Assembly: GCF_000519265.1 (NCBI RefSeq)
Contig: NZ_KI912608.1
Span: 447,665 to 511,664 of the forward strand
Source of the DNA: Desulfonatronum lacustre DSM 10312
GTDB lineage: Bacteria; Desulfobacterota; Desulfovibrionia; Desulfovibrionales; Desulfonatronaceae
DNA: 64,000 bases
Direction of reading: 5' to 3'
In this document: positions 15,718 to 35,847 of the stretch, piece by piece
Position numbering within the stretch: position 1 is the stretch's first letter
Layout of the letters: every line of letters starts with the position of its first letter
Notes under the pieces: generated by a model
Told to the model about the DNA's origin: nothing
Databases searched by the model: none
Seen by the model: only the letters and a program-made list of their open reading frames with translations
Translations under genes and position numbers: made by a program

Positions 15718-15884
15718 GTATCTGCTCAGCACATTTTACGTCCGCTCTTGTTCCGGCAATCGGGGTCGGGGTCGGTATCGGAATCGAAACAGGAAAAATT
15801 AAGAACGCATCCCAGCGTTTTCGATCCCGATTCCGATTCCGATTCCGACCCCGACAACAGCATTGCTTTGTGCTGAGTAGTTAC
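15718..15884 (+). repeat. Family A terminal-inverted-repeat hairpin element, copy A1
   Basis: The ends read GTATCTGCTCAGCACA and TGTGCTGAGTAGTTAC, inverted repeats with two mismatches. Between them, GGGGTCGG-type hexamers on the left face CCGATT/CCGACC hexamers on the right, forming a long imperfect hairpin whose tip is AACGC ATCCC AGCGTT. No open reading frame. Three more copies are at 31277, 50387 and 51758. It lies in the 486-base gap between uvrC and the UPF0173 gene. Confidence 0.9.
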
Positions 15885-19914: not shown

Positions 19915-21324
19915 CTACCTTTGTTGGAGGGTTTGCCAGAGTCGTTGGATGGTCTCGGAGAAGCGCGGATCGGAATGGGTCGGCATGCGCCGGGCCGGAG
20001 GCTTGGCCCGGGCGTCCAGGAGCAGTTTTCCGCCTTGTCCCGGCGTTGTCGATGGATGCCATGGGGCCAGCGGACCCTGAATGCGGACCATGTCGCGGTC
20101 CGGGTCCAGGCAGTTGCCCAGGCGCCAGAGAACCTGGGAAACGTCCGCGCAGTCCACGAATTCATCCACGGCCACCAGAAAGCGAAACCGGCGCAGCTCG
20201 CGTTCCTCGCTCAAGCAACGCAGCAACTCCAACGCATTTGGTGCATCATGCTGGTCCGAGTCCAGGACGACGAACAGAAAGTTTTGGTAGATGCCCTCCA
20301 TGGGCAGGGCGATGTCCCGGATTTCGAGATATGCGGAGCACAGTCGGGCTCGGAGCATCGCTTCCTGGGCCTTGGCCATCCAGGTGCTTTCCGAAGGTGG
20401 TGGGCCGGCGACGATGCACGGCAGGATCGGGGCCGCTGCCTGGGAGATGGCACGTAACCGGAGGACCGGGCAGGGGCGTGGAGTGCTCAGCAGTCCGGTG
20501 TGGTTTCCGAAAGGGCCTTCCAAAGCCCGTTCTTCAGGTAGCGCGTACCCCTCCAGGACAAATTGGCTTGTGGCCGGGACCAGCAGGTCTACTGTGCGGC
20601 AACGGGCCAACGACAGCCGGGTGTTCGTCACGCGGGCCGCGAACTCCAACTCGTCCACCTCCCGCGGCAAGGACAGCCCGCTGGCCAGGAGCACGGACGG
20701 AGGCACGCCCAGGGCCACGGCGACTTCCAGTGGTCGCTTCATCGCTTTGGCCGCTTGAAAATGTTCCGCCGCGTCGCTGCCCGGATGCCAGCCCAAGGTC
20801 GCTCTGGTATTGTCCAGGATTTGGATTCGGTAGATTCCCGCGTTGCGCCGTCCGGTCCGGGGATGCCTGGTTACGACCACCCCGGCCGTCAGACAGGGCC
20901 CGACGTCGCCCGGCCAGAGCGTCATGCGCGGCAGGTGCTGAAAGGTGGCCTCAGGTCCGGTAAGGGAATGTTCCTGGCAGGGCGGTTCATCCACGATGTC
21001 AAAAAAATCATCGTGATGATCCGCATCGCCGGGTGTTTCCAGTGCAAGACTGGATTTGCCCAGAAGAAGGCGGTCAGCCTCGTTCCCGAAGTCTCGGAGC
21101 GAGGCATGGTTCAGGGCCAGGGCGATGCGTTCTTCCGAGGCCAAGGCGTTGGTCAGGATGGGATGCTTCGAGTCGCGGACGTTCCTGAAAAGCAGAGCCG
21201 GTCCTTGCTCGCGTACGGCCATGGCGCTCAGGGCGGCTATTTCCAAGTGGGGGACCACCGGCGCGTCGACGACCATCAGGGCATCGCGTCGGGCAAGTTC
21301 CTCCAGAAAACGCGGTAGGTCCAT
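19915..21324 (-). CDS. ubiD: UbiD-family decarboxylase
   Basis: 469 residues. UbiD enzymes use prenylated FMN to (de)carboxylate aromatic or unsaturated acids; here menaquinone synthesis is the likely pathway, though an aromatic-acid role is possible. Visible features are the NAGIYRIQILDNTRATLGWH block, the EGPFGNHTGLLS motif that carries the catalytic glutamate/arginine network, and a C-terminal LVAVDEFVDCADVSQVLWRL region. The ATG at 21322-21324 (MDLPRFLEELARRD) is preferred to an upstream in-frame start. Paired with ubiX. Confidence 0.92.
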   Translation of the reverse strand: MDLPRFLEELARRDALMVVDAPVVPHLEIAALSAMAVREQGPALLFRNVRDSKHPILTNALASEERIALALNHASLRDFGNEADRLLLGKSSLALETPGDADHHDDFFDIVDEPPCQEHSLTGPEATFQHLPRMTLWPGDVGPCLTAGVVVTRHPRTGRRNAGIYRIQILDNTRATLGWHPGSDAAEHFQAAKAMKRPLEVAVALGVPPSVLLASGLSLPREVDELEFAARVTNTRLSLARCRTVDLLVPATSQFVLEGYALPEERALEGPFGNHTGLLSTPRPCPVLRLRAISQAAAPILPCIVAGPPPSESTWMAKAQEAMLRARLCSAYLEIRDIALPMEGIYQNFLFVVLDSDQHDAPNALELLRCLSEERELRRFRFLVAVDEFVDCADVSQVLWRLGNCLDPDRDMVRIQGPLAPWHPSTTPGQGGKLLLDARAKPPARRMPTHSDPRFSETIQRLWQTLQQR

Positions 21325-21381
21325 GGGACGGAGTGTAGGCGATCCCCGGAAAAAAACCAATCACGGCCAAATTCGAATTCC

Positions 21382-21410
21382 TTGACAATCGTTCAGCCGT
21401 AGATGTAAAT
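21382..21410 (+). promoter_or_regulatory. Candidate tRNA-Arg promoter
   Basis: A perfect -35 TTGACA (21382-21387), 17 bases, then GTAAAT as a weak -10, placing transcription start a few bases before the tRNA at 21423. Confidence 0.5.
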
Positions 21411-21422
21411 GTACCCTCTTTC

Positions 21423-21499
<77 letters not shown>

Positions 21500-21506
21500 A
21501 AAAATC

Positions 21507-21545
21507 AAGGGTTTACGATGAAAAATCGTAAACCCTTTTTTGTTG
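21507..21545 (+). terminator. Rho-independent terminator of tRNA-Arg
   Basis: AAGGGTTTACGAT, a short A-rich loop, ATCGTAAACCCTT and a run of T residues, seven bases after the tRNA CCA end. Confidence 0.92.
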
Positions 21546-21614
21546 TCTTTTCATACCCACCTGCGCGTCAATTGCGGCGATTCAAGTGGAAGATGTTTTT
21601 GAATTTTGAAACGC

Positions 21615-21794
21615 TCAAATAACGCTGAGGTTTTTCAGAATTTTTATAGCCAGTGGTTCTTTGACTTCAGTATGTCTCGGGACAGCTTCCACAACGCCGG
21701 TGCGGGGGTTGATCCACAATGAGTGCGCACTGCCCTCCCTTTTCAGATAGCAACCAGCCATGCGCAGTCTTCGCTCTAAATCTCTTCGCTTCAT
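21615..21794 (-). CDS. hicA: HicA-family toxin, second pair
   Basis: A 59-residue protein that falls below common ORF length cut-offs. Translation begins MKRRDLERRLRMAGCYLKRE and contains the catalytic-histidine strand GSAHSLWINPRTG and then VEAVPRHTEVKEPLAIKIL, the HicA pattern. It starts inside the hicB stop codon (ATGA overlap). It differs clearly in sequence from the hicA at 5175, so this is a second, independent pair rather than a recent copy. Confidence 0.85.
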   Translation of the reverse strand: MKRRDLERRLRMAGCYLKREGSAHSLWINPRTGVVEAVPRHTEVKEPLAIKILKNLSVI

Positions 21795-22009
21795 CCGACC
21801 ATGACCTTTTCCTGGATAGCATCGGCAGGAAGGCCGCGAAGAATGTCCGCCATTCGATCCTCCAGAATCATTTCAATGGCCTGCCGCAAGCTCTCCTTTG
21901 TTTCCTCAATGGTTTCCCCTTGGCCGTTGGCTCCGGAAATCTCCGGGCAGACCGCCCAGTAGCCGCCTTCTGGGGCTTGCTCAATGATGGCTGTTAATTC
22001 AGCTTTCAT
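21791..22009 (-). CDS. hicB: HicB-family antitoxin, second pair
   Basis: 72 residues with the HicB core AIIEQAPEGGYWAVCPEISG, NGQGETIEETKESLRQAIEM. No DNA-binding tail. Located downstream of tRNA-Arg, followed by the overlapping hicA. The same order (antitoxin then toxin) as the first pair. Confidence 0.88.
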   Translation of the reverse strand: MKAELTAIIEQAPEGGYWAVCPEISGANGQGETIEETKESLRQAIEMILEDRMADILRGLPADAIQEKVMVG

Positions 22010-22052
22010 AATTTCCTCACGGTTCGCTGTTTGCAGTGCGCGATATAGGGCC

Positions 22053-22311
22053 CTAATTCAACTCACCCCGAAATTTCCTCGAAAGCCGGAACACAAACAC
22101 CTTGCGCGGCTTCAGGGTGATGACTTCGCTGGTCGCTGGTTGTTGGGTCGGGATGCCATGAAACTCTGTCCTCCCGGCCCAAACATCTGGACGCGGCCTT
22201 ACGAGAATCGGCTTCAGCTATGGTGAATTCATCCTCCAGGGCCGCTCGCTCTCGGATGAACTCGGGGTCATGAACAAAATTTTGGCGGGTCCGCTCATGG
22301 TCATGGTTCAA
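22053..22311 (-). pseudogene. Remnants of small regulatory genes
   Basis: An 82-codon frame starts MNHDHERTRQNFVHDPEFIR and continues ALEDEFTIAEAD, which resembles the N-terminus of XRE-type antitoxins, but then runs into unrelated sequence with no helix-turn-helix. A second frame of the same strand (stop at 22053-22055) encodes EVITLKPRKVFVFRLSRKF, resembling the end of an HU-like DNA-binding protein. Two different gene ends in different frames indicate decay. Confidence 0.5.
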
Positions 22312-22389
22312 GCTCCTTCAGTCCGGCCAGGGCAGGTAGGGTGCGCCGATCCGCACCAGTTGGCAAGTGCACGATGAAGGGAAAAGTGC

Positions 22390-22455
22390 TCACGCAGGCC
22401 TTGGAACGAGCTCCACTTTCAGCTTGGTGCCGGTGGTCTGGGCATATCTGATGTT
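22390..22455 (-). pseudogene. Fragment of an XRE-type antitoxin C-terminus
   Basis: NIRYAQTTGTKLKVELVPRP followed by a stop codon matches the usual end of HigA/XRE antitoxins (…YAQATGTxLKVELVP). An in-frame stop directly precedes it, so only the last 21 codons survive. Confidence 0.5.
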
Positions 22456-22468
22456 CTAGTCTGCACGA

Positions 22469-23185
22469 TCAACAGTCAGCAGCCAACCATTCCAGCAGTT
22501 CCATTGGGGTGCGCAGGACCACGCGTGCACCGGCGGCGCGGAGTTCTTCAGGGCCGCGGAAGCCCCAGGCCGCGCCGAGCGGGGTCATGCCGGCGGCCTG
22601 GGCGGTGCGCATGTCCACATCGGAGTCGCCGAGAAAAAGAATGGCGCCGGGGTGCAGCCCCAGGTGCTCGGCCGTCTCCAGGGCCGTGGTCGGGTCGGGT
22701 TTGCGGGGTTTGTCCGGATGCGCGCCCATGACCACTCGAAAAAGGTTTGCCGAGAAAAAGTGGTCGACCATGGCCAAGGTGGCGTCGTGGGGTTTGTTGG
22801 ACAGTACGGTCATCGGAACGCTCTTGTCCCGCAAGGCGTTCAGGAGGTGGTCGATCCCGTGGTACGGCTTGGTCTTGTTGGCCCATCCGCGGGCGTAGAC
22901 CTCTCGCATTTCCGAAACGATCTCGGCGACCCGCCGATCTTCGCGGCGTTCTTCCTCCGGCATGGCCCGGCGGACCAGCATGGTCACTCCGTTGCCGACG
23001 AATCGCCGGTAGGCGTCCAAGGGGTGCGTGGGCCAGTGGTGCTCGGCCAAAACCGTGTTCATGGCGTCGGCCAGGTCTTCCAGCGTGTCGAGCAGGGTTC
23101 CGTCAAGGTCGAAGATGACGCCTTGGAATGGAGCGGTGGACATCAATGCATCTCCGGTGGAGCGTTGAGGTGTGTCATGGCTCAT
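22469..23185 (-). CDS. gph: HAD-family phosphatase, phosphoglycolate phosphatase-like
   Basis: A 238-residue HAD subfamily IA hydrolase. The nucleophile motif is GVIFDLDGTLLDT (about residues 23-35), motif II is TVLSNKP, motif III lysine lies in HPDKPRKPDPT, and motif IV is ILFLGDSDVDM. The cap domain is the four-helix type of Gph/PGPase. The ATG at 23183-23185 overlaps the stop of the preceding gene (ATGA), suggesting coupling; a second ATG 14 codons later also has a ribosome site. Being last in the wecB-nfr operon, it may act on a sugar phosphate, but Gph-like housekeeping function is equally possible. Confidence 0.85.
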   Translation of the reverse strand: MSHDTPQRSTGDALMSTAPFQGVIFDLDGTLLDTLEDLADAMNTVLAEHHWPTHPLDAYRRFVGNGVTMLVRRAMPEEERREDRRVAEIVSEMREVYARGWANKTKPYHGIDHLLNALRDKSVPMTVLSNKPHDATLAMVDHFFSANLFRVVMGAHPDKPRKPDPTTALETAEHLGLHPGAILFLGDSDVDMRTAQAAGMTPLGAAWGFRGPEELRAAGARVVLRTPMELLEWLAADC

Positions 23186-24285
23186 TCCTGTTTCAGTCCA
23201 GAAATGCCCAGATATGTTACATAGTCGGTATACAAAACCTCGGCGAGGGTGTTGCCAGCCAAGGGGTGGAGGTAATCCGGGATGCTGAAGGCCACGATGT
23301 CGTTGCCCGCGAGGGTTTGGGCCTGGAGCAGTTGTTGTTCGATTCGTTCCATGGGCGCTGGAATAAAGCCGAGGCCGTCTTCCGTCGGGGCGAAGGTTTC
23401 CACGATGACGCGAAGACGCGCGCCGGTCCGTGGGATGGATGCCGCCAAAGCCTCAAGGTATGCCGCTGACTCGGCGTGCAGAAGACGTTCGGTACCCAGG
23501 CCGTCCTGGTACAGCACTTCCGTGATGTTTCCGGACTGAGCCAGGTCGGCCATGAGCGCGGCAAATCCGGCTGGATCGTTGTGTCCGGTGGCGAAGCACG
23601 AGACGGTCACTTCCACTTCCGGGGAGAGTTCGCGCAATCCGTCGGTGAGCCGGGCCAAATGCTTAGTGAGCCGGTTCAGGCGTTCCGGGTCGATCCAGGT
23701 GGCGTCGTCGATTTCCTGTGGAATATAAAAACCCGCGAAAACCGGATCCTTGCCGTATCGCTCGACCAAGGTCCGGGCCAGGGAAAGCTGGTCCTGGAGC
23801 AGGCGGTTCAGGAAGACCTCCACAAGTCCGGCTTCATTCTTGATTTTTTCCCACCAAGCGCGGTCTTCAGTCAGGCCGAAACGGACCGACAGGCCATGCC
23901 GCCTCGCCGCATCGACGAGCAGGTCCACGGCGGGAGCGGGATCGACGCGGTCGTGGGGAACGTCCATGCGCTGGTCAGGGGTCAGTCGCCAGAAAAACGC
24001 CGGTTCGGTGATCAGCGACCACTGGAGGATGATTTCCCGGACTCCCATGGCCTTCAGGTCCGCGCAAAGCGTGTCCCAGGTCTGCTCGGACCATTCGGCG
24101 TGACGGTCCCAGATCTGGATGAAGGTGGCGGAGAAAGCCGGGGGAGAATCGGCCCGGACTGGAAGCGCGCCCCAGGTCAGGGCCAAGCTCGTCAGCAGCG
24201 CCCACCAGGTAACCCGGAGTCTAGAACCGGAACAAAAGTGTCGCGAAAAGGGCGTCGATTTGATCGTCCTGGATGTTGTCCACAT
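23182..24285 (-). CDS. DUF4434 periplasmic TIM-barrel protein of the nfr operon
   Basis: 367 residues from a GTG start, with a hydrophobic export signal (VTWWALLTSLALTWGALPVR) and a likely cleavage after VRADS. The mature part is a glycoside-hydrolase-like barrel: SATFIQIWDRHAEWSEQTWD, then VREIILQWSL and FAGFYIPQEIDDATW, with two adjacent acidic residues in the last motif as possible catalytic groups. This is the DUF4434 pattern. The start codon overlaps nfrA by 65 bases, and a later start cannot be excluded. Its place in the operon suggests trimming or release of the exported polysaccharide, analogous to PgaB or PslG; this is inference. As I recall, the E. coli nfr locus also has a DUF4434-type neighbour (YbcH). 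Confidence 0.8.
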   Translation of the reverse strand: MWTTSRTIKSTPFSRHFCSGSRLRVTWWALLTSLALTWGALPVRADSPPAFSATFIQIWDRHAEWSEQTWDTLCADLKAMGVREIILQWSLITEPAFFWRLTPDQRMDVPHDRVDPAPAVDLLVDAARRHGLSVRFGLTEDRAWWEKIKNEAGLVEVFLNRLLQDQLSLARTLVERYGKDPVFAGFYIPQEIDDATWIDPERLNRLTKHLARLTDGLRELSPEVEVTVSCFATGHNDPAGFAALMADLAQSGNITEVLYQDGLGTERLLHAESAAYLEALAASIPRTGARLRVIVETFAPTEDGLGFIPAPMERIEQQLLQAQTLAGNDIVAFSIPDYLHPLAGNTLAEVLYTDYVTYLGISGLKQE

Positions 24286-27200
24286 TGAATACTCTGCCGA
24301 TTTTGTAGGTCAAAAGGAGTTCCACGCTCTTGCGGGGCAAGGTGTACTTGTCCTCGTCGTACAGGTAGCGGGCCGAAAGGCCGAGGCCGCCTTCGTAAAA
24401 AGAGACGTCGTCGGCCCTGGAGCCTGACCACCATTTGGCGTCGGCAACCAGAAACGGCGTGAGGATCATGTTGTCGTGCACCTTCCAGTTAAAGCCTTGG
24501 CGGCCCTCCACATAGGCGGCCAGTCGGGAGGGAGACTCCAGGTAGGCGTCGACTTCCCCGAACAGAAATGAGTAATTCCAGAACGTTTCATTGGGACGGA
24601 TTCGGTCCGAATCGTCGAACAGGGAAAGCATGGCCCGGGCGACCCAATTGTCTTCGCCCTCCCCGGAAAGAGCAAAGAGCCGTTCCACTCCCAGGTTCAG
24701 GTTGTACTGTTTCAGGGGCTTGTAGCGCAGGCCCAGGGCCGCTTCCCAGGAGTTGTCCCGCACGCGCAGGCTGTCCGGCTCCATGCTCCAGCCCAGTCGC
24801 CCGATGAGCTTGAATATTCGGTGATCCTGGAATCCCCATTCCGGCGGGATCCAGCCGAGTTCGATCCCCGATGACGTACGCAGCACGTCCCGGCCCGGCG
24901 CGGCCAATCCGCCGAGGGTTCCGGTTTTGCCCGAAGTGTAGGTCAGCCAGAAATCCAGGTCCACGGCATTGCGCAAGGCGCGTATTTCGCCGCGCATCCT
25001 CCGGACGTCCTCGGCTACGGCTTGGGCCTGTTCTTCACCTTCCATGGGGCGCAGGGGAGCGTTGTCGATGGCGTCCATGAAGTGCTCCACGGCCTCATCG
25101 TTGTCGCCCTGGCGCATGGCGATGTAGCCCAAATCCTGATGCACCGCGAGGAAGTCCGGCTCGTGCAGGGCTGCTTCGCTCAAAAGAGGCCGGGCTTCGT
25201 CCAGGTGGTCCAGGCCCAGAAATTCGTAGCCCGACGCCATCAGCATCGCCGGCGTTCCGTGCAGGTTGGCGGCTTGCGCGAAAGCTTTGGCCGCGGCTTG
25301 ATGATCTTCCTTGCGACGATAAATCCCGCCCAACTCAAACCAAAGCTCCGCGAGCCGCTCATCGCCGTGCTCTCGATTCTCGGTCCAAGCCAGTGCGTCC
25401 CGATAAAGAGCCTCTGCTTCGTCCAGGCGATCGAGAGCTCCGCTGATTCGCGCCAGTAAGACGATTCCCGGAGGTTGGTCGTGCTCCGGAAAATCGGTTT
25501 GATCCAGAACGCGAAGCAGGTCGTCGGCACGTTTCGCATCCCCACTGGAAAACGAGGCCCTGGCCAGGCGATAGCGTGTTTCCGGGGTGTCTTGCAGTTT
25601 CAGGGCCTGTTCGTACCAGTCGGCGGCCAGATCATGGCGGGCAAGTGCCTCGTTCAGATAGCCTAAAAGCATCAGCACGGGGTACTGTTCTGCTTTCGGC
25701 AACACGCTCAGATCCGTATCCAAATCCGTCTGCCCACGCATGAACGGGGCTTGGCTGAGAGAGTACAGGGCCAGGCCGGGTTGATCGAGGCGTTGATAGG
25801 ATCTGGCCAAGCCGATCCAGGCCATATCTCCGGCGCCAAGCTCGGCCGCCCGGGCAAAGGCGTCCCGAGCCCGGCGGTAAAGGTCCATCGAGGCCAGGGC
25901 ATAACCAAGCCGGAGCATGCGTCCGGGCTGTTCGCCATCTCGAATCACGGCGCGTTCCAGGGCTTGCAGCGCCCGGATGCGCTCGCCTTGGCCGATGAGG
26001 ATGTCCACGGAGGATTCCGCGATTCGAGCGGCTTCTTCCGGTGGGAGACCGGGTTGATCCTCGGCTTGTTCAAGAAAGGCCACGGTTCGTTCCGGCCAGC
26101 CTGGCAGGGCCCGGACTTCTTCCAAGCGGGCCAGGCGCAGCAGAACGTCGGCTCGCTCCGATCCGTCAGCCGCATCCTCCAGAAGAGTGACCAGGACGTC
26201 GCTTGCCTGGTCCGGCCTGTTGCCCTCCAAAAACAATCTCTGTGCGCGTTCCAGGAGGTCCGCTCGCTTTTCCGCGTCCACCGCGGGCAAGTCCGCGGCG
26301 CGGAGCAGGGTCAGCGCCGCGGCGTCCGGACTGCCGACCTGTCGCTGCAGATGCGCCGCGGACTCCATGGCTCGAAGTCGGTCCTTTGGGTCGGCATCGG
26401 TGTTACCGGCCAATTGCAGGGACGTGGCGATGGCTTGGTCCATCCGTCCAGCCCTGGCCCAGAACCCGACGATCATTTCCGCCATGGCGGAATCCTTCAG
26501 TCCACCGGCTTTCCAGGCTTTTTCGTAGTTTTGGGCCGCGATGTCAAAGCGTTCCTCCTTCACGGCCAGCGCACCCAGGGTGGCCCAGGATGCCGGAGTG
26601 AGGTCGTCTTGGGCGGCCTGCTCAAAAGCCAGACTCGCTCCTCGGAAGTCGCCGAGACGCTCGCGGATGACGCCGAGCATGACCAGGGCCCGCTTGCGCT
26701 TTTCCGGGTCGGTGGTCTTTGCGAGGATTTCAGCGTGTTGTTCGGCTTCCTGGAGCTGTCCGAGGTCGAAAAGCAACTGCGCGAGATGCTCGCGGGCTTG
26801 CTGATCACCTGCTTCCACGGCTCGGCGGTAGTGCTCCGCGGCCTCACTGGGAAGGTCGGCGCGCAGAGCCAGTTCGGCCAATCGCGGTTCCAGGCTGGGG
26901 GGGGGCTGGTTCACGGTGGATTGCAGAAGCAGCGATCGTGCTCTTGCGTATTGCCCCACATGGATGGCCTCTTCGGAGGCGGCCGCGAGGGCTTGTTCGC
27001 GGGTTTCCCTGGTTTTGGCCTGGATTGCGGCTGTTTCCAGCGAGTCCAGGGCCAGGGCGTGCTCACCGAGAGCGGAAAGGGCGAATCCTCGGACCAGGTT
27101 CGGTGACCACGAGAGCTCTTCCTGGACTGATCCGTCGAGAAGAGCCAGAACTTGGTGGAAATCCTCCCGAGCCATGGCCCGGTTGACCAGGGTCAGGAGG

Positions 27201-27676
27201 ATGTCGTTGTGTTGTTTCTCGGAGATATCCGCTAAACTCAGGGCCCGTTGAAAATCGACCTGGGCTTCGTCCCAGCGTCCCAGACGGTCCAGTGCCCAGG
27301 CCCGATACAAAAGCGGGACCAGGGCGTTTGGTCGGTTTTCCAGAATCCGACCGGCGTGTTCGACGATTTCAGGGTCATTTCCAAACTGCTCCAGCAAAAC
27401 GATCAACTGGAGCCGTACGTTGTCCTCAATGGGGTCGATGTCCAGCAATGCCCGCAATTCGTTGGCCGCGCCATGAATGTCGCCCTTGGCTTGCAGCCGA
27501 TTGGCCATGTCCTGGTGCGGCCAGGTACGGTTCGTGCGGAGTTCCCGGGCAATGACGCCTTCGCGTTCCCGAGGGATCTCAAACCTGGGAAGTTGTTCCT
27601 CGGCATGCGTGGCCCAAGGGAGGAAAAAAAGGACAAGGCCGAGGAAAAACAAGACGCGAACAAGGAGGTGCTTCAT
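24221..27676 (-). CDS. nfrA: NfrA-like outer-membrane TPR/beta-barrel protein
   Basis: 1151 residues. A signal peptide (VLFFLGLVLFFLPWATHAEE), then about 25 helical TPR-type repeats from residue 45 to 900 (for example ALVPLLYRAWALDRLGRWDE and GIVLLARISGALDRLDEAEA), then a C-terminal region from about 960 with alternating beta strands (WEAALGLRYKPLKQYNLNLG, VELLLTYKIGRVFNV, ending in LLFRF) that ends in phenylalanine as outer-membrane barrels do. The architecture is that of NfrA, the phage N4 receptor component and of BcsC/PgaA-type exopolysaccharide export porins. Starts within the nfrB stop (ATGA). Confidence 0.88.
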   Translation of the reverse strand: MKHLLVRVLFFLGLVLFFLPWATHAEEQLPRFEIPREREGVIARELRTNRTWPHQDMANRLQAKGDIHGAANELRALLDIDPIEDNVRLQLIVLLEQFGNDPEIVEHAGRILENRPNALVPLLYRAWALDRLGRWDEAQVDFQRALSLADISEKQHNDILLTLVNRAMAREDFHQVLALLDGSVQEELSWSPNLVRGFALSALGEHALALDSLETAAIQAKTRETREQALAAASEEAIHVGQYARARSLLLQSTVNQPPPSLEPRLAELALRADLPSEAAEHYRRAVEAGDQQAREHLAQLLFDLGQLQEAEQHAEILAKTTDPEKRKRALVMLGVIRERLGDFRGASLAFEQAAQDDLTPASWATLGALAVKEERFDIAAQNYEKAWKAGGLKDSAMAEMIVGFWARAGRMDQAIATSLQLAGNTDADPKDRLRAMESAAHLQRQVGSPDAAALTLLRAADLPAVDAEKRADLLERAQRLFLEGNRPDQASDVLVTLLEDAADGSERADVLLRLARLEEVRALPGWPERTVAFLEQAEDQPGLPPEEAARIAESSVDILIGQGERIRALQALERAVIRDGEQPGRMLRLGYALASMDLYRRARDAFARAAELGAGDMAWIGLARSYQRLDQPGLALYSLSQAPFMRGQTDLDTDLSVLPKAEQYPVLMLLGYLNEALARHDLAADWYEQALKLQDTPETRYRLARASFSSGDAKRADDLLRVLDQTDFPEHDQPPGIVLLARISGALDRLDEAEALYRDALAWTENREHGDERLAELWFELGGIYRRKEDHQAAAKAFAQAANLHGTPAMLMASGYEFLGLDHLDEARPLLSEAALHEPDFLAVHQDLGYIAMRQGDNDEAVEHFMDAIDNAPLRPMEGEEQAQAVAEDVRRMRGEIRALRNAVDLDFWLTYTSGKTGTLGGLAAPGRDVLRTSSGIELGWIPPEWGFQDHRIFKLIGRLGWSMEPDSLRVRDNSWEAALGLRYKPLKQYNLNLGVERLFALSGEGEDNWVARAMLSLFDDSDRIRPNETFWNYSFLFGEVDAYLESPSRLAAYVEGRQGFNWKVHDNMILTPFLVADAKWWSGSRADDVSFYEGGLGLSARYLYDEDKYTLPRKSVELLLTYKIGRVFNVDNIQDDQIDALFATLLFRF

Positions 27677-29943
27677 GCATCGGTTCCGGAGATACGGGTC
27701 GAAAGAGATTCCAATGTTGCCTGATCGATCACACCCATGTCGGTCAGAATTGTTTCCAGCTGTCTGGTCTTTCTGTTTTGTAAGTGCAGGGCTTCATCCA
27801 GTTGGGCTTGCGTTATGACACCTCGCTCCAGGAGACAGGTTCCCACCGGGGCGATGTCCCGTCCGTTCTCCAAGCATGATTTGAGTTCGCTGAGACTGGA
27901 TCTGTCCAGATGTCCAAGTGCTGTAAAAACTTCTCCGAGACTCCGGTATCCCTTTCGCTGCCTCTTGCGGGCCTCGGCGAGTTGTTCCGGAGTGAGCAGT
28001 TCCAGACGGAGGAGTTCCGCTGTGAGTTTCTCTTCATGCGATTCTCGTGCCAATCGATCGTAGCCAAAGCGTATCGCGAAGGACAGGTCGCCGCGGGTGG
28101 TCAGACGCAACTCGACCGGACGGTCGATGTCGCTCGCCAATTGTCTGATTTCATCGGAGTCCGGCATGGATTCCATGGCCAGGATCAAGCCTCCGTTCGG
28201 GGAGAGACCCACCGGAAAGAGGCGTTGTCGTCGGGCCATGCCGAGCGGGACCATGGCAATGACCTCTTTGTCCACGGCATACGGATCGACGGGGGTAGTC
28301 TGAAGGCTGAGTTGGATCCCCAGGGTCTGTAAAAGTTTGTCCTCTTCAATGACGCCCATGTCCTCCAGGATCGCGCCCAGAGGTTGGCCGGTGGCTTTTT
28401 GACGCTCCAGGGCCGTGTCCAACTGGGCCACGGTCACGAACCGGCGATCCAGCAGCAAGTCGCCCAACCGGCGCCGATAGCGGACCAGTTCTTCTTCACT
28501 CGGGTAGGAGTGGTCGGTCTTGTCCCAGGCCACGGGGGCCCCGGTGAGCAGGTATCGGACGTAAAGCCTGATGGCCCGGATGGTGGCGAAAAAATTGATG
28601 ACGTTGGCCCAGATCAATCGGAAGGGGCTCAGGGCGGCCTGAGCGATGTTATAGGTTCGGGCCACGTACCAGGCCCGCATGCCGAGCTGCCAGAGCAGCA
28701 GGCCAAGGTTGGCCAGCATCAGATGGAAAAGGATCGTTCCGCCGGTGACAACCGGGGGGTAGCGATAGGCGTCGGGGAAGAAATACACGTAGCCCCAGAC
28801 GGCCAGATAGACCGGCACCAGGATGTTGGCCAGCATGTTCACCTGATTGGTGATCAATCCAACCCTGTCCCTGGCCAGCATGTACCGGGTCCAGAATCCG
28901 CCCACCCAGCCGATGGTTTCCCAGGCCTGCAAGGTGATGCCCAAAATCCAGCGTGATTTTTGGCGGACCGCGGTGCGAAAGGTGCTGGGGAAGAATTCCC
29001 GAACGCCGATATAATCCCGCTTGCGGGCAGAATATTCACGGCCGGTCAGGCGGCTTTTTCGGCGCACGGTGCGCTCAAAGGCCACCCGGGAGAATATCTG
29101 GCGCACTCCGGGAACGTCGCCCAGGCGGATGCCGAAGTCGTAGTCTTCGGTCACCGAACCGATGGTGAAAAGGCGATTCTGATTCTTTTGAGCCAGGCCG
29201 AGCAGCAATTTTCTGGAAAAGGCCGTTCCGACTCCGGCGGAGGGGAGGTTCCCGGTGAGCAGCTCCCGGACGACCATGTCTCGGGAGTGGTTCGTGGCGA
29301 ACTCATCCAGGTAGGTGCCCATGGTGAATTGCCACCACTTGGGTTCCATGGGGAGAACCGGAACCTGGACCATGTCCATCCGGGGAATCAGGTAATTGAA
29401 GAGTTTGAGAAGCATGGGATGGAGGATGTCTTCGGAGTCCTCCATGACGATGATCTCGAATTCGGTGCCGTGCTCCTTCTCGTAATGGCGGATGCCCTCG
29501 AAAATCCAGTTCAGGCAGTCGGCTTTGGAGGTCGGACCGTCCTTGGGGCAAACGATGCGCTCCACGTTGCCGAAGCGTTCCCGAACAAGGTCCACTTCCC
29601 GCTGCGTGGCCGGGTCATTGGGATACGTACCGACGAAAAAGACGTAGTTGGAATAGTTGAGCACCTTGATGGAGTTTTCCAGCATGCGACTGATGACCGC
29701 GGACTCATCCCAGCATGGAATCATTATGGCGATGAACTGTTCGGGGCGGCCCGTCAGGTCGGCTTCGGTGAGGTGCTTGGACTTTCGAAACCCGAAGATG
29801 AACACTCGCCGCCAGACTTCAATGCCGATGCGGACCAGGTCGATGAACAGATCGCTGAGCCCGTTCAGAAAAAAGACCAGTCCGAAGACCCACAGGCCGG
29901 CCTTCAGAAAGATGAGCAGAACGGGCAGGAAATCCAGAAGCAT
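27673..29943 (-). CDS. nfrB: NfrB-like inner-membrane glycosyltransferase with MshEN c-di-GMP-binding region
   Basis: 756 residues. N-terminal membrane helices, a family 2 glycosyltransferase with IAIMIPCWDES, the metal-binding acidic motif MEDSED (167-172), TEDYDFG (265-271) and the processive QKSRW motif (328-332), then further helices, then from about residue 480 two MshEN-like blocks (RRRLGDLLLDRRFVTVAQLD and PLGAILEDMGVIEEDKLLQT) and additional copies near the C-terminus. E. coli NfrB is a c-di-GMP-activated transferase using UDP-ManNAc. The ATG at 29941-29943 has GAGG at good spacing and lies four bases after wecB. Confidence 0.9.
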   Translation of the reverse strand: MLLDFLPVLLIFLKAGLWVFGLVFFLNGLSDLFIDLVRIGIEVWRRVFIFGFRKSKHLTEADLTGRPEQFIAIMIPCWDESAVISRMLENSIKVLNYSNYVFFVGTYPNDPATQREVDLVRERFGNVERIVCPKDGPTSKADCLNWIFEGIRHYEKEHGTEFEIIVMEDSEDILHPMLLKLFNYLIPRMDMVQVPVLPMEPKWWQFTMGTYLDEFATNHSRDMVVRELLTGNLPSAGVGTAFSRKLLLGLAQKNQNRLFTIGSVTEDYDFGIRLGDVPGVRQIFSRVAFERTVRRKSRLTGREYSARKRDYIGVREFFPSTFRTAVRQKSRWILGITLQAWETIGWVGGFWTRYMLARDRVGLITNQVNMLANILVPVYLAVWGYVYFFPDAYRYPPVVTGGTILFHLMLANLGLLLWQLGMRAWYVARTYNIAQAALSPFRLIWANVINFFATIRAIRLYVRYLLTGAPVAWDKTDHSYPSEEELVRYRRRLGDLLLDRRFVTVAQLDTALERQKATGQPLGAILEDMGVIEEDKLLQTLGIQLSLQTTPVDPYAVDKEVIAMVPLGMARRQRLFPVGLSPNGGLILAMESMPDSDEIRQLASDIDRPVELRLTTRGDLSFAIRFGYDRLARESHEEKLTAELLRLELLTPEQLAEARKRQRKGYRSLGEVFTALGHLDRSSLSELKSCLENGRDIAPVGTCLLERGVITQAQLDEALHLQNRKTRQLETILTDMGVIDQATLESLSTRISGTDA

Positions 29944-29947
29944 GCGC

Positions 29948-31126
29948 TTATGCCTCAACCTCGGAACAGGTTCCGAAGAAGGTTTCTTCCGGGAGCAGCA
30001 AGGGACGTTCTCCGCGCAGAAAACGCCTGGTCGCCAGGACGATGCGCCGCGATGCCCGGCCGTCGCCGAAGGGATTGCCGGTCCGGCGTATGATTCGGGA
30101 AACCTCGGACCGCTTGGCGAGCACCTCGCCGACGGCTTGAATCACTGTTTGGGGGTCCGTGCCCACTATCCGGGCCTGACCGCAGTCCACGGCCTCGGCG
30201 CGTTCGGTGACGTCGCGGGTGACCAGGACCGGTACGCCGAATGAAGGGGCTTCTTCCTGCACGCCTCCGGAGTCGGTCAGGATCAGTTCGGCTTGGTACA
30301 TCATCCGAACAAATTCCAGGTACGGAACGGACGGGAGCAGAACGATCCGGTCATGGTGTCCGAGGATTTGTCGCGCGGTTTGTTGGACAATCGGGTTGGC
30401 GTGAACCGGAAACACCGCGACCACGTCCGGATGGTCCTGAACGATGGTTTCCACGGCCCGGCAAATATTTTCCAGGCCTCGGCCCCACGATTCCCGGCGG
30501 TGAGCCGTGACCAGAATCAGTCGGCGGCCCTGGAGGCGGCTTTGGACGTCCTGGGCCAGGGGGCCCAGTTTGTCCGCGAAATGCAGCAAGGCGTCCACCA
30601 CGGTATTGCCCGTGACGGCGATGTTCTCCGCTGGGACGTGCTCGGCCAGCAATTCCAAGGCCGCCGAGTCCGTGGGCGCGAAGTGCGGTCCGGTCAGGAT
30701 GGAGACCAGGCGACGATTGGCTTCCTCGGGAAAAGGGTTTTGGAGGTCATGGCTCCGCAGGCCTGCTTCCACGTGTCCCACGGGCACGTGATGATAAAAC
30801 GCGGCCAGGGCCGCGGCCAGGACCGTGCTGGTATCGCCCTGGACCAGGAGCAGATCCGGACGGTGGCTTTTGATTTCCTGGTCCATGACGCGGAGCACGT
30901 CCGCGGATATCTCTGCCAGGGATTGGCCCGGGCGCATGATTTCAAGGTCGCGGTCGGGTTGTAAATCGAAGGAGTCCAGGATCTGCGTCAGCATTTCCCT
31001 GTGCTGTCCGGTACTCAACACCCGGACCGAGAACTCATCGGGGAAGTCGCGAAAAGCGGCGATGACAGGGGCCATTTTCACGGCTTCGGGCCGTGTTCCG
31101 AGAACGATGTCGATGGAGTGGGGCAT
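29948..31126 (-). CDS. wecB: UDP-N-acetylglucosamine 2-epimerase (non-hydrolysing)
   Basis: 392 residues; interconverts UDP-GlcNAc and UDP-ManNAc. Family motifs: VLGTRPEAVKMAPVIAAF at the N-terminus, VQGDTSTVLAAALAAFYH and VGHVEAGLRSHD, LVTAHRRESWGRGLENI, and ILTDSGGVQEEAPSFGVPVL. Length is typical. Four bases separate it from nfrB, so the operon makes its own UDP-ManNAc, matching the wecB requirement of the E. coli Nfr polysaccharide. The sequence before the ATG is C-rich with no recognisable ribosome site, which is odd for the first gene of an operon. Confidence 0.94.
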   Translation of the reverse strand: MPHSIDIVLGTRPEAVKMAPVIAAFRDFPDEFSVRVLSTGQHREMLTQILDSFDLQPDRDLEIMRPGQSLAEISADVLRVMDQEIKSHRPDLLLVQGDTSTVLAAALAAFYHHVPVGHVEAGLRSHDLQNPFPEEANRRLVSILTGPHFAPTDSAALELLAEHVPAENIAVTGNTVVDALLHFADKLGPLAQDVQSRLQGRRLILVTAHRRESWGRGLENICRAVETIVQDHPDVVAVFPVHANPIVQQTARQILGHHDRIVLLPSVPYLEFVRMMYQAELILTDSGGVQEEAPSFGVPVLVTRDVTERAEAVDCGQARIVGTDPQTVIQAVGEVLAKRSEVSRIIRRTGNPFGDGRASRRIVLATRRFLRGERPLLLPEETFFGTCSEVEA

Positions 31127-31276
31127 GGGAAAGGGGTTGGGGTTGGGGGATGGGTGGGGAGGTACTCGCTTGCCGCGTCTTTTCTATTCACTTCTGAACC
31201 GAAACACCAGAGCGTAAGGTGGAGCGAGGTAGAGAAGTGGTCGGGTATCATCTTGTTGCTCGGCGTAGTTTTTTTT

Positions 31277-31449
31277 GTATCTACTCAGCACATTTTGTGT
31301 CCGCCCTTGCTCCAGCAATCGGGGTCGGTATCGGAATCGGAGTCGGAATCGGAACAGGAAGAATTTAGAACGCTTCCCAGCGTTTTCGATCCCGATCCCG
31401 ATTCCGACTCCGACCCCGGCAAAGGCATTACTCTGTGCTGAGTAGTTAC
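31277..31449 (+). repeat. Family A element, copy A2
   Basis: GTATCTACTCAGCACA (31277-31292) and TGTGCTGAGTAGTTAC (31434-31449) are inverted repeats matching at 15 of 16 positions, the best-preserved ends in the window. The inner arms are GGxxTCGG hexamers opposite CCGAxxCC hexamers, with an apical hairpin AACGCT TCCC AGCGTT. T-rich runs flank both sides. It fills most of the gap between wecB and the iron alcohol dehydrogenase. Confidence 0.92.
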
Positions 31450-31590
31450 GTTTTTTTTTTGAGATTCTCCACCGTCGTCTCTGGATTATTCAGTTTTTTT
31501 GCGATAAGACCTTTTTCAGGCTCGAATTCCATTCCCAATCACGTTGTCGTGGCTGGGGGCGCTTTGCGGTCCCGGTTTGGAGGTGCGGCC

Positions 31591-32760
31591 ATGTATCAAG
31601 CTTCCATGGAGAATTTGCGGAAATTCGTGGCCCCGGAGTTTGTTTTCGGGGTGGGGGCGCGTCGGCTTGTCGGGCAGTTTGCCCGGAACTTCTCGGTGCG
31701 GCGTGTTCTGGTGGTGGTGGACGAGGTGGTCGGCGGGCTGCCGTGGACCACGGACGTCCTCGGCAGTCTGGATCAGGCGAATCTGGAGTATCGCATTTTC
31801 TCCGACCTTTCTCCCAACCCTCGGGCGGACGAGGTCATGCGGGGGGCGAGGTATTATCTTCAGGAGGATTGCCAGGCCATCGTCGCTCTGGGCGGCGGCA
31901 GCGCCCTGGACTGTGCCAAGGGGGTCGGCATCGTCTGCGTCAATAATAAGCCTATCCTGGATTTTGAAGGTGTGGACAACGTTCCCGTGCCCGGACCGCC
32001 TTTGATCTGCATTCCCAGCACCGCGGGCAGTTCCGCCGACGTCTCCCAGTTCGCGATCATCACGGACCAGGCGCGCAAGGTGAAAATCGCCATCGTGAGC
32101 AAGGCCATGGTTCCGGATATCGCCCTGATTGATCCGGAAACCACGGTCAGCATGTCGCCGCATCTCACGGCCTGCACCGGCTACGACGCCCTGACCCATG
32201 CTGTGGAAGCCTATGTGTCCAACGCCAGCTCGGCCATTACGGACCTGCACGCCCTGGAGGCCGTCCGCCTGGTCGGCAAGCATTTGCCGCGCGCGGTGGA
32301 GGCACCCCTGGACATGGAGGCTCGGTCCGGAATGATGCTGGCCTCGCTGCATGCCGGGCTGGCCTTTTCCAACGCCAGCCTGGGCGCGACCCACGCCATG
32401 GCCCACAGTCTCGGCGGACTGTTGGATCTGCCCCATGGCGAGTGCAACGCCATTCTGCTCAGCCGGGTGGTGGACTTCAATTTCCAAGCCGTCCCGGATC
32501 GTTATTTGCGGGTGGCTGAAGCCCTGGGGCTGGATTGTCGAGGGCTGGAGGTCGAGGGGCGACGCCAGGCGCTGGTGCAGGGGCTGACGGCGTTGCGCAA
32601 GCAGGTCGGACTGACCAGGGACCTGGAAGAACTGGGCGTCAGTCAAGCGGATATCGAGGGATTGTCCCGGCAGGCCGTGTGCGATCCCTGCATGGTCACC
32701 AACCCTGTCCACCCTGCCGTGGAAGACATCGAACGATTGTATGTCCGAAACTCTGAATAA
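31591..32760 (+). CDS. Iron-containing alcohol dehydrogenase
   Basis: 389 residues of the type III (Fe-ADH) family, which oxidises alcohols or reduces aldehydes with NAD(P). The nucleotide loop is AIVALGGGSALDCAKGVGI; TAGSSADVSQFAI and the metal ligands D-x3-H in TGYDALTHAVEAY plus the two histidines in HAMAHSLGGLLDLPHGECNA are all present. The ATG at 31591 is preceded by TTTGGAGG; an upstream extension of 52 codons reads through repeat flank and is rejected. Its last 20 bases overlap a sensor kinase gene, so this enzyme heads a signalling operon; the substrate may be linked to what that operon senses. Confidence 0.92.
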   Translation: MYQASMENLRKFVAPEFVFGVGARRLVGQFARNFSVRRVLVVVDEVVGGLPWTTDVLGSLDQANLEYRIFSDLSPNPRADEVMRGARYYLQEDCQAIVALGGGSALDCAKGVGIVCVNNKPILDFEGVDNVPVPGPPLICIPSTAGSSADVSQFAIITDQARKVKIAIVSKAMVPDIALIDPETTVSMSPHLTACTGYDALTHAVEAYVSNASSAITDLHALEAVRLVGKHLPRAVEAPLDMEARSGMMLASLHAGLAFSNASLGATHAMAHSLGGLLDLPHGECNAILLSRVVDFNFQAVPDRYLRVAEALGLDCRGLEVEGRRQALVQGLTALRKQVGLTRDLEELGVSQADIEGLSRQAVCDPCMVTNPVHPAVEDIERLYVRNSE

Positions 32761-34504
32761 AACCATCCCGCCGGAAGTCCTTCTCTCCGAGGGCGATGCG
32801 GGCGTCGGTCCTCAAGGGACGACCACGAACCGCGATGCCTTGCGTCGCCGGATCATCGGTCTGGGCGAGGGGTCCATCCATAAAAGCTATTACCCGCAGT
32901 TGCAGCAGCGCTTGCGGGAGCTGCATCGCTTCAAGACCCTGCTGGACGGCAGCAATGAAGGCATTTTTCTGATTCGGTTGCCAAATTCGCTCCAAACGGA
33001 TTCGCGCGAAACGGATTCCGGCGTGCCGGATGGCGACATGCCGGATGTCGACATGGTGGACGTGAACGAATCAGCCTGTGCCCAGCTCGGCTACTCCTGC
33101 CAGGAAATTCTGGAACTCTCATTTTTCGATCTTTTTCCAACCAAGGATCATCGTCGGCTGGAGTCGTTTCTCTCCACCATGGACCAATCCGAGCACGGGC
33201 GGTCCATTATCACGGAGTTCATTCGCTCCAATGGAGAATGTTTTCCCGTGGAAGTCTCCTCGCGGCTGGTCCGGTTCGATCTGGACCCTTACGCCGTGGT
33301 CGTGGCCCGGGACATCACCGAACGGTTGCGCATGGAGGAGGAACTGCAACGAGCCGGAAACCTGGAAGCCCTTGGGGTGCTGGCCGGAGGCATTGCGCAT
33401 GATTTCAATAATTTTTTGACGGCGATCATGAACCAGATTTCCTTGGCCAAGCTGCATTTGGATCAGGCGGATCATGTTCTGGAAAAGTTGACCTACGCGG
33501 AAAACGCCTGCTTGCAGGCCAAAGGATTGACCCAGCAACTGTTGACCTTTGCCAAGGGCGGGGAGCCCGTGCGCAAGATCACTTCCATGGCGAGTTTGGT
33601 CGGCGATGCCTTGCGATTGGTTCTGGCCGGAACCAACGTCAAACCCATGCTGACCATTCCCGATGATTTATGGCTGGTGGACATTGATTCGGGACAGATT
33701 TCGCAGGTTTTGAACAATCTCCTGATCAACGCGGTTCAGGCCATGCCCGAGGGCGGGATGTTGCGCGTGACCGTGCGCAACGTGATACACGCCAAGGGGG
33801 GGGGAGAATCGACGTTCGGAGAGCATTTGCCCCATGGCGACCATCTCTGCGTGACCATCCAGGATAGTGGCCCGGGAATTCCCGAAGAGACGTTGGCCAA
33901 AATTTTCGATCCCTACTTTACCACCAAGCCCCAGGGCAGTGGCCTCGGATTGGCCACTTCCTATTCGATCATCCGGAAGCACGGGGGAACACTCACCGTA
34001 CGGTCCAAGCAGGGACAGGGCGCGACGTTCATGTTTTGCCTGCCCGCCACGCGGTTCGAGACGGATTCGGCTCACAGCCAACCCAGTGAGCCTTTTCACT
34101 CCGCTGAGGTGGCCCATCATATTCTCTTCATGGACGATGACGACATGATTCGCGAATCCATGGGCGAGATTCTGGAGGACATCGGCTATACGGTGACGCT
34201 GGTCCGGGACGGACGAGAGGCCTTGGAGGCGCTGCATCAGGCGCGGGAGGACAACCAGGTGTTCGACGTGGCCATCATGGACCTGACCATTCCCGGCGGC
34301 ATGGGCGGAGCGGAGGCGGTCGGGCGGCTGAAGGCCGTGGATCCGCTGCTCAAAGCCGTGGTTTCCAGCGGCTACAGCACGGCTCCGGCCATGGCCCACT
34401 ATCGGGAATACGGTTTTGACGCCGTGGTGGCCAAGCCCTATACGGTGAACGAGTTGCGAAGCGTTTTGGCTCGATTGTTGAGTGGAGACGAGGAAGAAGG
34501 ATGA
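32741..34504 (+). CDS. Soluble PAS hybrid histidine kinase with C-terminal receiver
   Basis: 587 residues with no membrane helix. PAS domain at about 58-200 (LLDGSNEGIFLI, FVFPVEVSSR-like core), DHp with the phospho-acceptor in GGIAHDFNNFLTAIMNQ (about residue 220), an HATPase (NNLLINAVQAMPEGG N-box, DSGPGIPEE, GSGLGLATSYSIIRKHGG), and a receiver (MDDDDMIRESMGEILEDIGY; phospho-Asp in VAIMDLTIPGGMGG; lysine in VVAKPYT). It starts inside the alcohol dehydrogenase gene (20-base overlap) and its stop overlaps the next start (ATGA). Confidence 0.92.
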   Translation: MSETLNKTIPPEVLLSEGDAGVGPQGTTTNRDALRRRIIGLGEGSIHKSYYPQLQQRLRELHRFKTLLDGSNEGIFLIRLPNSLQTDSRETDSGVPDGDMPDVDMVDVNESACAQLGYSCQEILELSFFDLFPTKDHRRLESFLSTMDQSEHGRSIITEFIRSNGECFPVEVSSRLVRFDLDPYAVVVARDITERLRMEEELQRAGNLEALGVLAGGIAHDFNNFLTAIMNQISLAKLHLDQADHVLEKLTYAENACLQAKGLTQQLLTFAKGGEPVRKITSMASLVGDALRLVLAGTNVKPMLTIPDDLWLVDIDSGQISQVLNNLLINAVQAMPEGGMLRVTVRNVIHAKGGGESTFGEHLPHGDHLCVTIQDSGPGIPEETLAKIFDPYFTTKPQGSGLGLATSYSIIRKHGGTLTVRSKQGQGATFMFCLPATRFETDSAHSQPSEPFHSAEVAHHILFMDDDDMIRESMGEILEDIGYTVTLVRDGREALEALHQAREDNQVFDVAIMDLTIPGGMGGAEAVGRLKAVDPLLKAVVSSGYSTAPAMAHYREYGFDAVVAKPYTVNELRSVLARLLSGDEEEG

Positions 34505-35847
34505 ACGACCGAAAACTTTTTTTGAATCAATATGTGGTTCAGGAGTCGGCGAGCACGCACATGAAAGCAAGTTGGTTGTTGAAGTGGATCCAAGAGGCAG
34601 GGGGACTGTTTGCGCTTTTGCTTTTCGTACTGTTTTTGGGGATTCCGGCCCTGGCCTCCGATGATGAGCCGGAGCCGATCCGGGTGGGCATGTCCGGGGC
34701 GTTCAGCGGGCCGATTCGGGCTCTGGGCATCGAAGTGTACCGCGGGGCCATGGCGTATTTCGAGCATGTCAACCGCCGAGGAGGAATCAACGGTCGGCCC
34801 GTTACCTTTCTGGCTTACGACGATGCGTATGATCCGGCCTTGGCCCTGGAAAACGCGGTCCGGCTGTTGGAGCAGGACCGGGTGGACGCGTTGTTCAGCT
34901 TCGTGGGCACGCCCACCGTGACCCGCGTCCTGCCCCTGCTCAAGGTTTATGACGACAGAGACATTTCTCTATTCTTCCCGGTGACCGGAGCTGAACCTCA
35001 GCGCCAGCCGCCCTATGGCGGTTACGTCTTCAATTTGCGGGCTTCCTACGCTCAGGAAGTGGACGCTTTGGTCCGGGAATTCGTTCGGTTGGGAAAAACC
35101 CGGTTCGCGATCCTTTACCAGGCCGATTCCTATGGCCGCAGCGGTTGGGAGGGGCTGCGCAACGCCTTGCATCGGCACTCGCTCTCCATTGTGGAGGAGG
35201 CCACCTATTCCCGAGGGTTTCGGTTTGAACAAAGCATGGGCAAGCAGGTGGACATTTTGCGCGACGCGGACCCGGACGTGGTCATCAGCATCGCCTCCTA
35301 CGCCGCTGCCGCCGCCTTTATCCGCGAGGCTCGGGACCTGGACTGGGGCGTGCCCGTGGCCAACGTCTCCTTCGTGGCCAGCGAAAGCATGCTGGAGTTG
35401 CTGCTGGAGCAGGAGCGACGTACGGAGCGGAGCTATACCTGTAACCTGGTCAATTCGCAGGTGGTGCCCAGCTACGAGGACTATTCGCTGTGGGGGGTGA
35501 TGGAGTATCGATGGATCATGGATCAGTGCGTCTGTAAGCTGCCCGGGCAACTCGCCCCGGACCATTATGATCCCTTGCCCTACAGCTTCGCCAGCTTCGA
35601 GGGCATGCTCAACGCCAAGGTGTTCACGGAACTCGCGCGGAAAATTCCGTTGGGTGAGCTGGCCGCTGACGAGAATGGTGAGTTTGAAGCCGTCCCTCTG
35701 CTGATCAACCTGGGCATCGGCGCGCCGGTTTTTCTGGGTGCGGGACGTCGTCAGGGAATGGACGCCGTCTATTTCTCCACTGTCCGGGACGGTCGTTTCG
35801 TCCCGCTGCACGACTGGAAGCAATGGTCCGAGGAGGGGCGGCGATGA
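34501..35847 (+). CDS. Periplasmic ligand-binding protein (LivJ/AmiC-like type I fold)
   Basis: 448 residues with an unusually long N-terminus before the hydrophobic export segment ([20 protein letters not shown]); the true start may be the ATG at 34561. The mature protein has the branched-chain amino acid-binding protein pattern [40 protein letters not shown] and [20 protein letters not shown]. No ABC permease or ATPase is nearby; instead the gene is sandwiched between two sensor kinases with 4-base overlaps on both sides, so it probably delivers a ligand to the periplasmic domain of the next kinase, as TorT or LuxP do. Confidence 0.88.

Follow-up and report, generated by a model that had tools for sequence, protein, structure and literature searches.

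A probable four-gene Nfr-type exopolysaccharide cassette in Desulfonatronum lacustre and a predicted polymer-cutting role for its DUF4434 (YbcH) protein

We analyzed a stretch of 64,000 nucleotides from Desulfonatronum lacustre DSM 10312 (contig NZ_KI912608.1, positions 447,665 to 511,664; hereafter, the window), and more precisely the minus-strand genes wecB, nfrB, nfrA, and DUF4434 that it contains. We consider it probable (about 0.8) that these genes are a four-gene cassette for an Nfr-type, synthase-dependent exopolysaccharide, including a switch operated by cyclic diguanosine monophosphate (c-di-GMP); taken by itself, the cutting of the polymer by the DUF4434 protein, which is part of this reading, is only slightly more likely than not. 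Nfr operons with a linked wecB were known before, and the window holds another member of this type. In the mechanism that we propose, WecB would make uridine diphosphate N-acetylmannosamine (UDP-ManNAc), and c-di-GMP bound to the MshEN module would switch on NfrB, which would polymerize this precursor and pass the polymer through the inner membrane. The tetratricopeptide repeat (TPR) part of NfrA would receive the polymer and its outer-membrane barrel would export it, while DUF4434/YbcH would cut it in the periplasm, for length control or clearing, like BcsZ, PslG, and PgaB elsewhere. The features concerned are the following.

29948 to 31126, minus strand, wecB (392 amino acids): non-hydrolyzing UDP-N-acetylglucosamine (UDP-GlcNAc) 2-epimerase (TIGR00236, 444 bits for a cut-off of 210).
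27673 to 29958, minus strand, nfrB (761 amino acids): inner-membrane processive glycosyltransferase of family GT2 with a C-terminal MshEN c-di-GMP module.
28312 to 28470, minus strand: MshEN 53-residue c-di-GMP-binding unit, residues 497-549 of NfrB, the best of the stretches matching NF053729.
24221 to 27676, minus strand, nfrA (1151 amino acids): exported TPR protein with an outer-membrane barrel, predicted polymer exporter (NfrA_C, PF13283, at residues 977-1126, 76 bits for a cut-off of 25, and several TPR families).
23182 to 24285, minus strand, DUF4434 (YbcH family, 367 amino acids): exported TIM-barrel protein, predicted glycoside hydrolase (PF14488, 141.8 bits for a cut-off of 30).

The listing of open reading frames (ORFs) has five of them, all on the minus strand, filling positions 31126 to 22469 of the window, and we labeled them from Pfam and NCBIfam profile matches, scored against the family cut-offs. 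A sequence-only reading of this DNA, made without database searches, had described five minus-strand genes separated by 4-base gaps or overlaps. The genes are where it placed them and the profile matches agree with its family labels, but only two junctions have a spacing of exactly 4 bases, that of nfrB with nfrA and that of DUF4434 with the downstream HAD phosphatase, the latter when the longest HAD ORF is taken. The longest ORFs of wecB and nfrB overlap by 11 bases, and those of nfrA and DUF4434 by 65 bases. The operon consists of four genes, not five: the HAD phosphatase, which had been counted in the unit, is excluded by its distribution in the genus and at other nfr loci. A scan of positions 21300-31700 for sigma-70-like promoters says little, as it returned one site, inside wecB, and none upstream of this gene, for an average of 2.1 in shuffled sequences.

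The same genes occur together in other genomes (the NfrB counts for the class and for the near relatives include the window's own genome). NfrB was found in 20 of 297 genomes of the class (E≤1e-100) and DUF4434 (PF14488, E≤1e-8) in the same 20, with 21 copies of each, two of each being in genome G162. WecB (E≤1e-60) is present in 63 of the 297, i.e., in all 20 with NfrB versus 43 of the 277 others. When the three draws are taken as the same 297 genomes and phylogeny is ignored, Fisher tests give 1.6e-31 for NfrB with DUF4434 and 2.2e-15 for NfrB with WecB. Closer to the window, 7 of 61 near relatives have NfrB (E≤1e-60), and of the 8 genomes of the genus 2 have nfrB together with wecB, the other 6 having no wecB match (E≤1e-40) and no nfrB (one of these six, G007, is only 84% complete). 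In a sample of the phylum, NfrB was identified in 6 of 395 genomes (E≤1e-100), 4 of them shared with the class sample, and the two outside the class, G393 and G609, carry DUF4434 as well. There, DUF4434 lies at contig ends, with NfrA, WecB, and a fragment of NfrB in G609 (C15, the other NfrB match reaching the end of C254), and with WecB and part of NfrA in G393 (C6). In both genomes co-occurrence holds, whereas contiguity fails or cannot be seen.

We then compared gene order at 20 foreign loci, each taken with 16 to 19.5 kb of sequence, and at two additional ones. One of these two (L010) turned out to coincide with L040 and was not counted, which leaves 21 distinct other loci. At all of these, nfrB, nfrA, and DUF4434 are consecutive on one strand. 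The wecB gene is within the fetched stretch at 18 of the 21, upstream of nfrB except at L029 (genome G032), where it comes after DUF4434; at the other loci (L034, L040, and L043) it is outside, and their genomes (respectively, G016, G162, and G118) hold wecB elsewhere. The adjacency of DUF4434 and wecB to nfrAB is thus general; its restriction to this one genome would have refuted the sequence-only reading. G162 has two nfrB-nfrA-DUF4434 sets (L040 and L042), with wecB in the fetched stretch of one only. A coarse clustering of the ORFs found within 4 kb of the nfr loci showed no family common to at least three loci among the 12 largest clusters, and we base no conclusion on it.

These results are in line with what is known of the Nfr machine, first met in Escherichia coli as the receptor of phage N4. 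The nfrB-nfrA-ybcH operon of E. coli K-12 (NGR, for N4 glycan receptor) has the same three core genes in the same order on a single strand, its NfrB has the same glycosyltransferase and MshEN architecture, and its YbcH also matches PF14488. The placement of DUF4434 with nfrAB is therefore neither new nor unusual, since ybcH is itself a DUF4434 gene. The difference is in wecB, which is supplied by the enterobacterial common antigen operon in E. coli and lies inside the nfr operon in the window. This linkage is not new either: PMC8669469 reported in 2021 that many species, delta-proteobacteria among them, have a wecB linked to NfrBA-YbcH. It lists 1,841 homologues of NfrB, from E. coli and 406 further species, with occasional ones in delta-proteobacteria, and finds wecB linked to the nfr genes wherever no other pathway supplies it. 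As in the window, wecB is beside nfrB in Pseudomonas soli (PMC8669469), and nfrA, nfrB, and wecB are clustered in Achromobacter xylosoxidans (PMC8669472). Some wecB-linked clusters described elsewhere add acetyltransferase, BcsB-like, or GGDEF genes, none of which is among the window's five ORFs. The window system also resembles PgaABCD, which makes poly-GlcNAc with a c-di-GMP-dependent GT2 enzyme, an exporter combining TPR and porin, and a periplasmic protein with a glycoside hydrolase domain (PMC5933820). Unlike PgaABCD, it has an MshEN module and WecB, and no deacetylase or PgaD gene was found among the operon ORFs, where we looked for them.

NfrB scores above the cut-off of the equivalog NF012033 (625 bits for 537). 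Its glycosyltransferase motifs read DSED, TED, and QKSRW; in an alignment of 23 rows, D-x-E-D and QKxRW are present in all of them and TED in 22, the remaining one having AED. The protein matches MshEN (PF05157), as well as the c-di-GMP motif NF053729 in three stretches (111.7 bits for a cut-off of 38), and over this part its relatives in the PDB are PilF (6f8l, E=1.5e-13) and MshE (5htl, E=2e-12). We mapped on NfrB the 15 positions of MshE named in PMC5013675, using the phmmer alignment to 5htl, and 13 are kept (R9, L10, G11, D12, L25, L29, Q32, L39, G40, G47, L54, L58, and Q61). The c-di-GMP-contacting residues, the lack of which would have refuted the sequence-only reading, are thus largely kept. 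The E. coli protein keeps 11 of the 15 in the same alignment (R9, D12, G18, and Q32 differ, the Q32 column adjoining a gap of one residue), its set of departures from MshE being another than that of the window protein; it binds c-di-GMP with a dissociation constant of 1 µM, and its MshEN mutants lose N4 plating (PMC8669469). Synthesis of c-di-GMP is likely in the window genome, which has 23 GGDEF matches, and we infer that the molecule activates NfrB in D. lacustre. At the far C-terminus of NfrB (window 27724-28011, residues ~650-745) are further, degenerate MshEN-like blocks, seen from the three NF053729 stretches and a weak alignment of PilF over residues 650-755, and visible too in the E. 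coli row of the alignment; they are possibly a second ligand site or a dimerization element.

The operon contains a gene for the supply of UDP-ManNAc, wecB, whose activity is predicted from its sequence. It is the sole match to WecB at E≤1e-40 in its genome, and Pfam and NCBIfam matches show no other sugar-nucleotide enzyme among the operon genes. By analogy with E. coli genetics, the polymer would be based on ManNAc. In E. coli itself, this rests on the genetic dependence on WecB (PMC8669469, PMC8669472): the first of these papers terms the uncharacterized product a 'putative ManNAc-polymer' and the second postulates such a polymer. The product could accordingly be another sugar, a mixture, or a polymer that is modified further, but we regard this as rather improbable, given that every class-sample genome with NfrB has wecB, that 18 of the 21 other loci have it within the fetched stretch, and that the operon contains no other sugar-nucleotide enzyme gene.

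The least expected result concerns the DUF4434 protein. Its N-terminus, read by eye, resembles a signal peptide that is apparently cleavable, whereas YbcH has no cleavage site (PMC8669469). We aligned 22 proteins, from the window, 20 other loci, and E. coli (YbcH); that of L031, where the ORF is fused to a long upstream frame, was left out. All 22 match PF14488, and 22 positions are invariant, including Q57, Q88, W89, E191, D193, D194, Q260, D261, G262, E296, F298, F333, and S334. When L031 is included (23 rows), E191, D193, D194, D261, and E296 are still invariant. An AlphaFold2 model built from three sequences (the window protein and two relatives), which replaced an earlier single-sequence model (predicted local distance difference test, pLDDT, of 58), is a triosephosphate isomerase (TIM) barrel with eight main strands alternating with helices (mean pLDDT 78.2, predicted template modeling score 0.81). 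In this model, E191 (model residue 144) ends strand 4 (136-146) and E296 (model residue 249) ends strand 7 (243-249), both at the C-terminal ends, and D261 (model residue 214) comes after strand 6. The retaining hydrolases of clan GH-A have their glutamates in this arrangement, on strands 4 and 7. The model thus has the features of a retaining (4/7) glycoside hydrolase, namely a TIM barrel and conserved glutamates at the C-terminal ends of these strands.

The closest solved relative is BT_0435, a 'putative alpha-L-fucosidase' of Bacteroides (PDB 4h41, profile E=8e-17). It superposes on the model with a Z of 23.8 and a root mean square deviation of 3.2 over 270 residues (17% identity in the structural alignment), and aligns with the window protein at both glutamates and at the QDG motif, but is without the D193-D194 pair that follows E191. 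The next-best matches are GH5 beta-mannanases and a GH164 beta-mannosidase (Z 17-18). The fold singles out no one clan, since other barrel enzymes (beta-amylases, GH42-type galactosidases, and MANEA) also reach Z 16-18. PslG and PgaB are not among the best 50 structural matches listed, which is not evidence against kinship.

The idea of a putative trimming hydrolase, already in the sequence-only reading, has gained support from the invariant acids that end strands 4 and 7 of the barrel, and with this model we slightly favor hydrolysis of the Nfr polymer by DUF4434. We give about even odds to DUF4434/YbcH being a new family of retaining glycoside hydrolases and an obligate cutter of the NfrB polymer, the obligate part being suggested by the presence of DUF4434 in each of the 20 class-sample genomes with NfrB and in the two such genomes outside the class. 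Alternatively, the protein might have no catalytic activity and act in the periplasm as a scaffold or binding protein, steering the polymer on its way from NfrB to NfrA. This would fit the description of YbcH as an N4-dispensable 'putative scaffold protein' that 'may play an auxiliary role' (PMC8669469), and PgaB is a case in which such an enzyme is also able to bind the porin, at its TPR domain (PMC5933820), so that both roles may hold. We nonetheless find the non-catalytic alternative unlikely: none of the 22 proteins departs from E191, D261, or E296, as one would expect for an active site; strands 4 and 7 have E191 and E296, respectively, at their C-terminal ends; and all three acids are kept in the distant Bacteroides protein. 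In a literature search that left most subscription journals outside, we found no paper on DUF4434 by name, no hydrolase reading of YbcH/DUF4434 in the titles and abstract openings listed for ybcH (it could still be published), and, from 2022 on, nothing combining NfrA, NfrB, exopolysaccharide, and ManNAc.

Several observations weigh against a polymer system that is switched by c-di-GMP and trimmed by DUF4434. NfrB misses the cut-off of a second equivalog, NF008411 (623 bits for 1170), which we take as tuned to close relatives of E. coli and do not count as defining the system. Two MshEN positions are altered in the window protein, G18 to R506 and R38 to P526; in MshE, G18 is a turn residue and D12 is unimportant for binding (PMC5013675). 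NfrA appears as two ORFs at 5 of the 21 other loci (L031, L032, L033, L038, and L045). In G393, NfrB is on another contig than DUF4434, 11 kb inside C9, and no partner was found in 19 kb around it at E≤1e-5. Concerning DUF4434, the three-sequence model has weak loops (mean pLDDT 78), and the barrel alone does not prove catalysis because 996 of the 998 chains compared, which are Foldseek's own top matches, reach Z 8. With so many barrels scoring well, the prediction of a hydrolase rests on the conserved acids and not on Z. YbcH is moreover dispensable for N4 infection (PMC8669469), but this fits an enzyme role, since some of the analogous enzymes reviewed in PMC5933820 (BcsZ, PslG, PgaB, and AlgL), e.g., PslG, can be dispensable. 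Finally, the polymer, the switch, and the cutting are proposed for D. lacustre from sequence, model, and analogy.

The divided NfrA can be seen in more detail at L031 (10681-15137) and L033 (4420-8855), where the TPR and barrel parts are separate ORFs with a 4-base overlap. This suggests a genuine division of the gene and not an error.

The gene downstream of DUF4434 and the surroundings of the operon were analyzed with the genomes of the genus, whose gene neighborhoods were compared by blastp of ORFs. Two features are concerned.

22469 to 23185, minus strand: HAD phosphatase, phosphoglycolate-phosphatase-like (238 amino acids), an adjacent gene of the genus core, outside the system.
23127 to 31476, strand not given: insert relative to the empty site of congener G007 (blastn).

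The HAD phosphatase matches HAD_2 (PF13419, 118.4 bits for a cut-off of 23.8) and misses its best-scoring families, the phosphoglycolate phosphatase equivalogs TIGR01449 (143.7 for 180) and NF009695 (148 for 225). The sequence-only reading had given it a role in the pathway, which its position would suggest: it is on the same strand, immediately downstream of DUF4434, with a 4-base overlap when the longest ORF is considered. Yet this overlap is probably an artefact of start choice, because the aligned part of 10 HAD relatives starts at ORF residues 3 to 18 and the identity with G007 DNA starts at 23126, within the first 20 codons. The distribution of the gene speaks against the role too. All 8 genomes of the genus have it, and 6 of the 7 congeners of the window genome are without nfrB (11 of 12 genomes examined have the HAD gene). 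We found no HAD match at E≤1e-20 in G010, which has the nfr operon, nor at E≤1e-5 (phmmer) at the 21 distinct other nfr loci, in stretches extending a few kb beyond the trio. In G005, it is about 13 kb from the nfr operon, beside a UbiD homologue. In G007, the contig ends within the HAD gene; this gene and a homologue of the iron-containing alcohol dehydrogenase (Fe-ADH) encoded at window 31435-32760 are divergent and 264 bases apart. In G001, G003, G004, and G006, which lack nfrB, HAD adjoins a homologue of the periplasmic-binding protein of window 34501-35847, with no Fe-ADH or kinase match seen between the two.

Two segments of the window, 22557-23126 and 31477-32859, align with G007 DNA at 88% (blastn) and are only about 205 bases apart in that genome, where the Fe-ADH gene that flanks the window operon adjoins the HAD gene. 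G007 has an empty site for the nfr operon, whatever the completeness of its assembly, which may reflect a gain in D. lacustre or a loss in G007. Distribution and empty site led us to reject the HAD phosphatase as a fifth pathway gene, a membership that we hold to be extremely improbable; it is a bystander neighbor. The operon occupies different places in two congeners (the window and G005), which suggests that the nfr cassette has moved. A viral origin found no match in one scan of viral contigs with NfrB, a weak scan based on exact back-translated patterns only.

Other elements were observed around the operon. Window 31435-35847 (Fe-ADH, a hybrid histidine kinase, and the periplasmic-binding protein) is a block shared with G007. 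Between UbiD and HAD are a tRNA gene (21423-21496, plus strand) and, after it, a terminator-like hairpin (21507-21537). We also identified a palindromic interspersed repeat of 167-187 bp that resembles miniature inverted-repeat transposable elements (MITE) or REPIN, at window 15718-15884, 31277-31449, 50387-50573, and 51758-51938, one copy being directly upstream of wecB, next to the nfr insert junction. The repeat has terminal inverted repeats GTAWCTACTCAGCACA / TGTGCTGAGTAGTTAC and interior hexamers of the ATCGGG type, its RNA folds at -88 kcal/mol, and it has no match in Rfam. Querying with 31250-31470 gave at least 60 matches in the window genome and at least 40 in G005, and fewer in the other congeners (9 in G006, 7 in G007, 3 in G001, 1 each in G003 and G004, and 0 in G002), many rows being partial or from the second strand, with up to 40 candidates scored per genome.

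The operon presents the Nfr machine, outside enterobacteria, as a set of four genes that needs no others, precursor enzyme included, so that the whole set could be transferred in one piece into a laboratory E. coli. What is mainly gained is a role that can be assigned to DUF4434, which accompanies NfrB throughout the class sample, with no exception, and has the glutamate pair of strands 4 and 7, so that YbcH as a polymer-cutting enzyme is directly testable. If this role is true, the YbcH of E. coli, labeled auxiliary, would be a hydrolase of the poly-ManNAc type, and a polymer-cutting YbcH would be a tool to identify the uncharacterized N4 glycan receptor.

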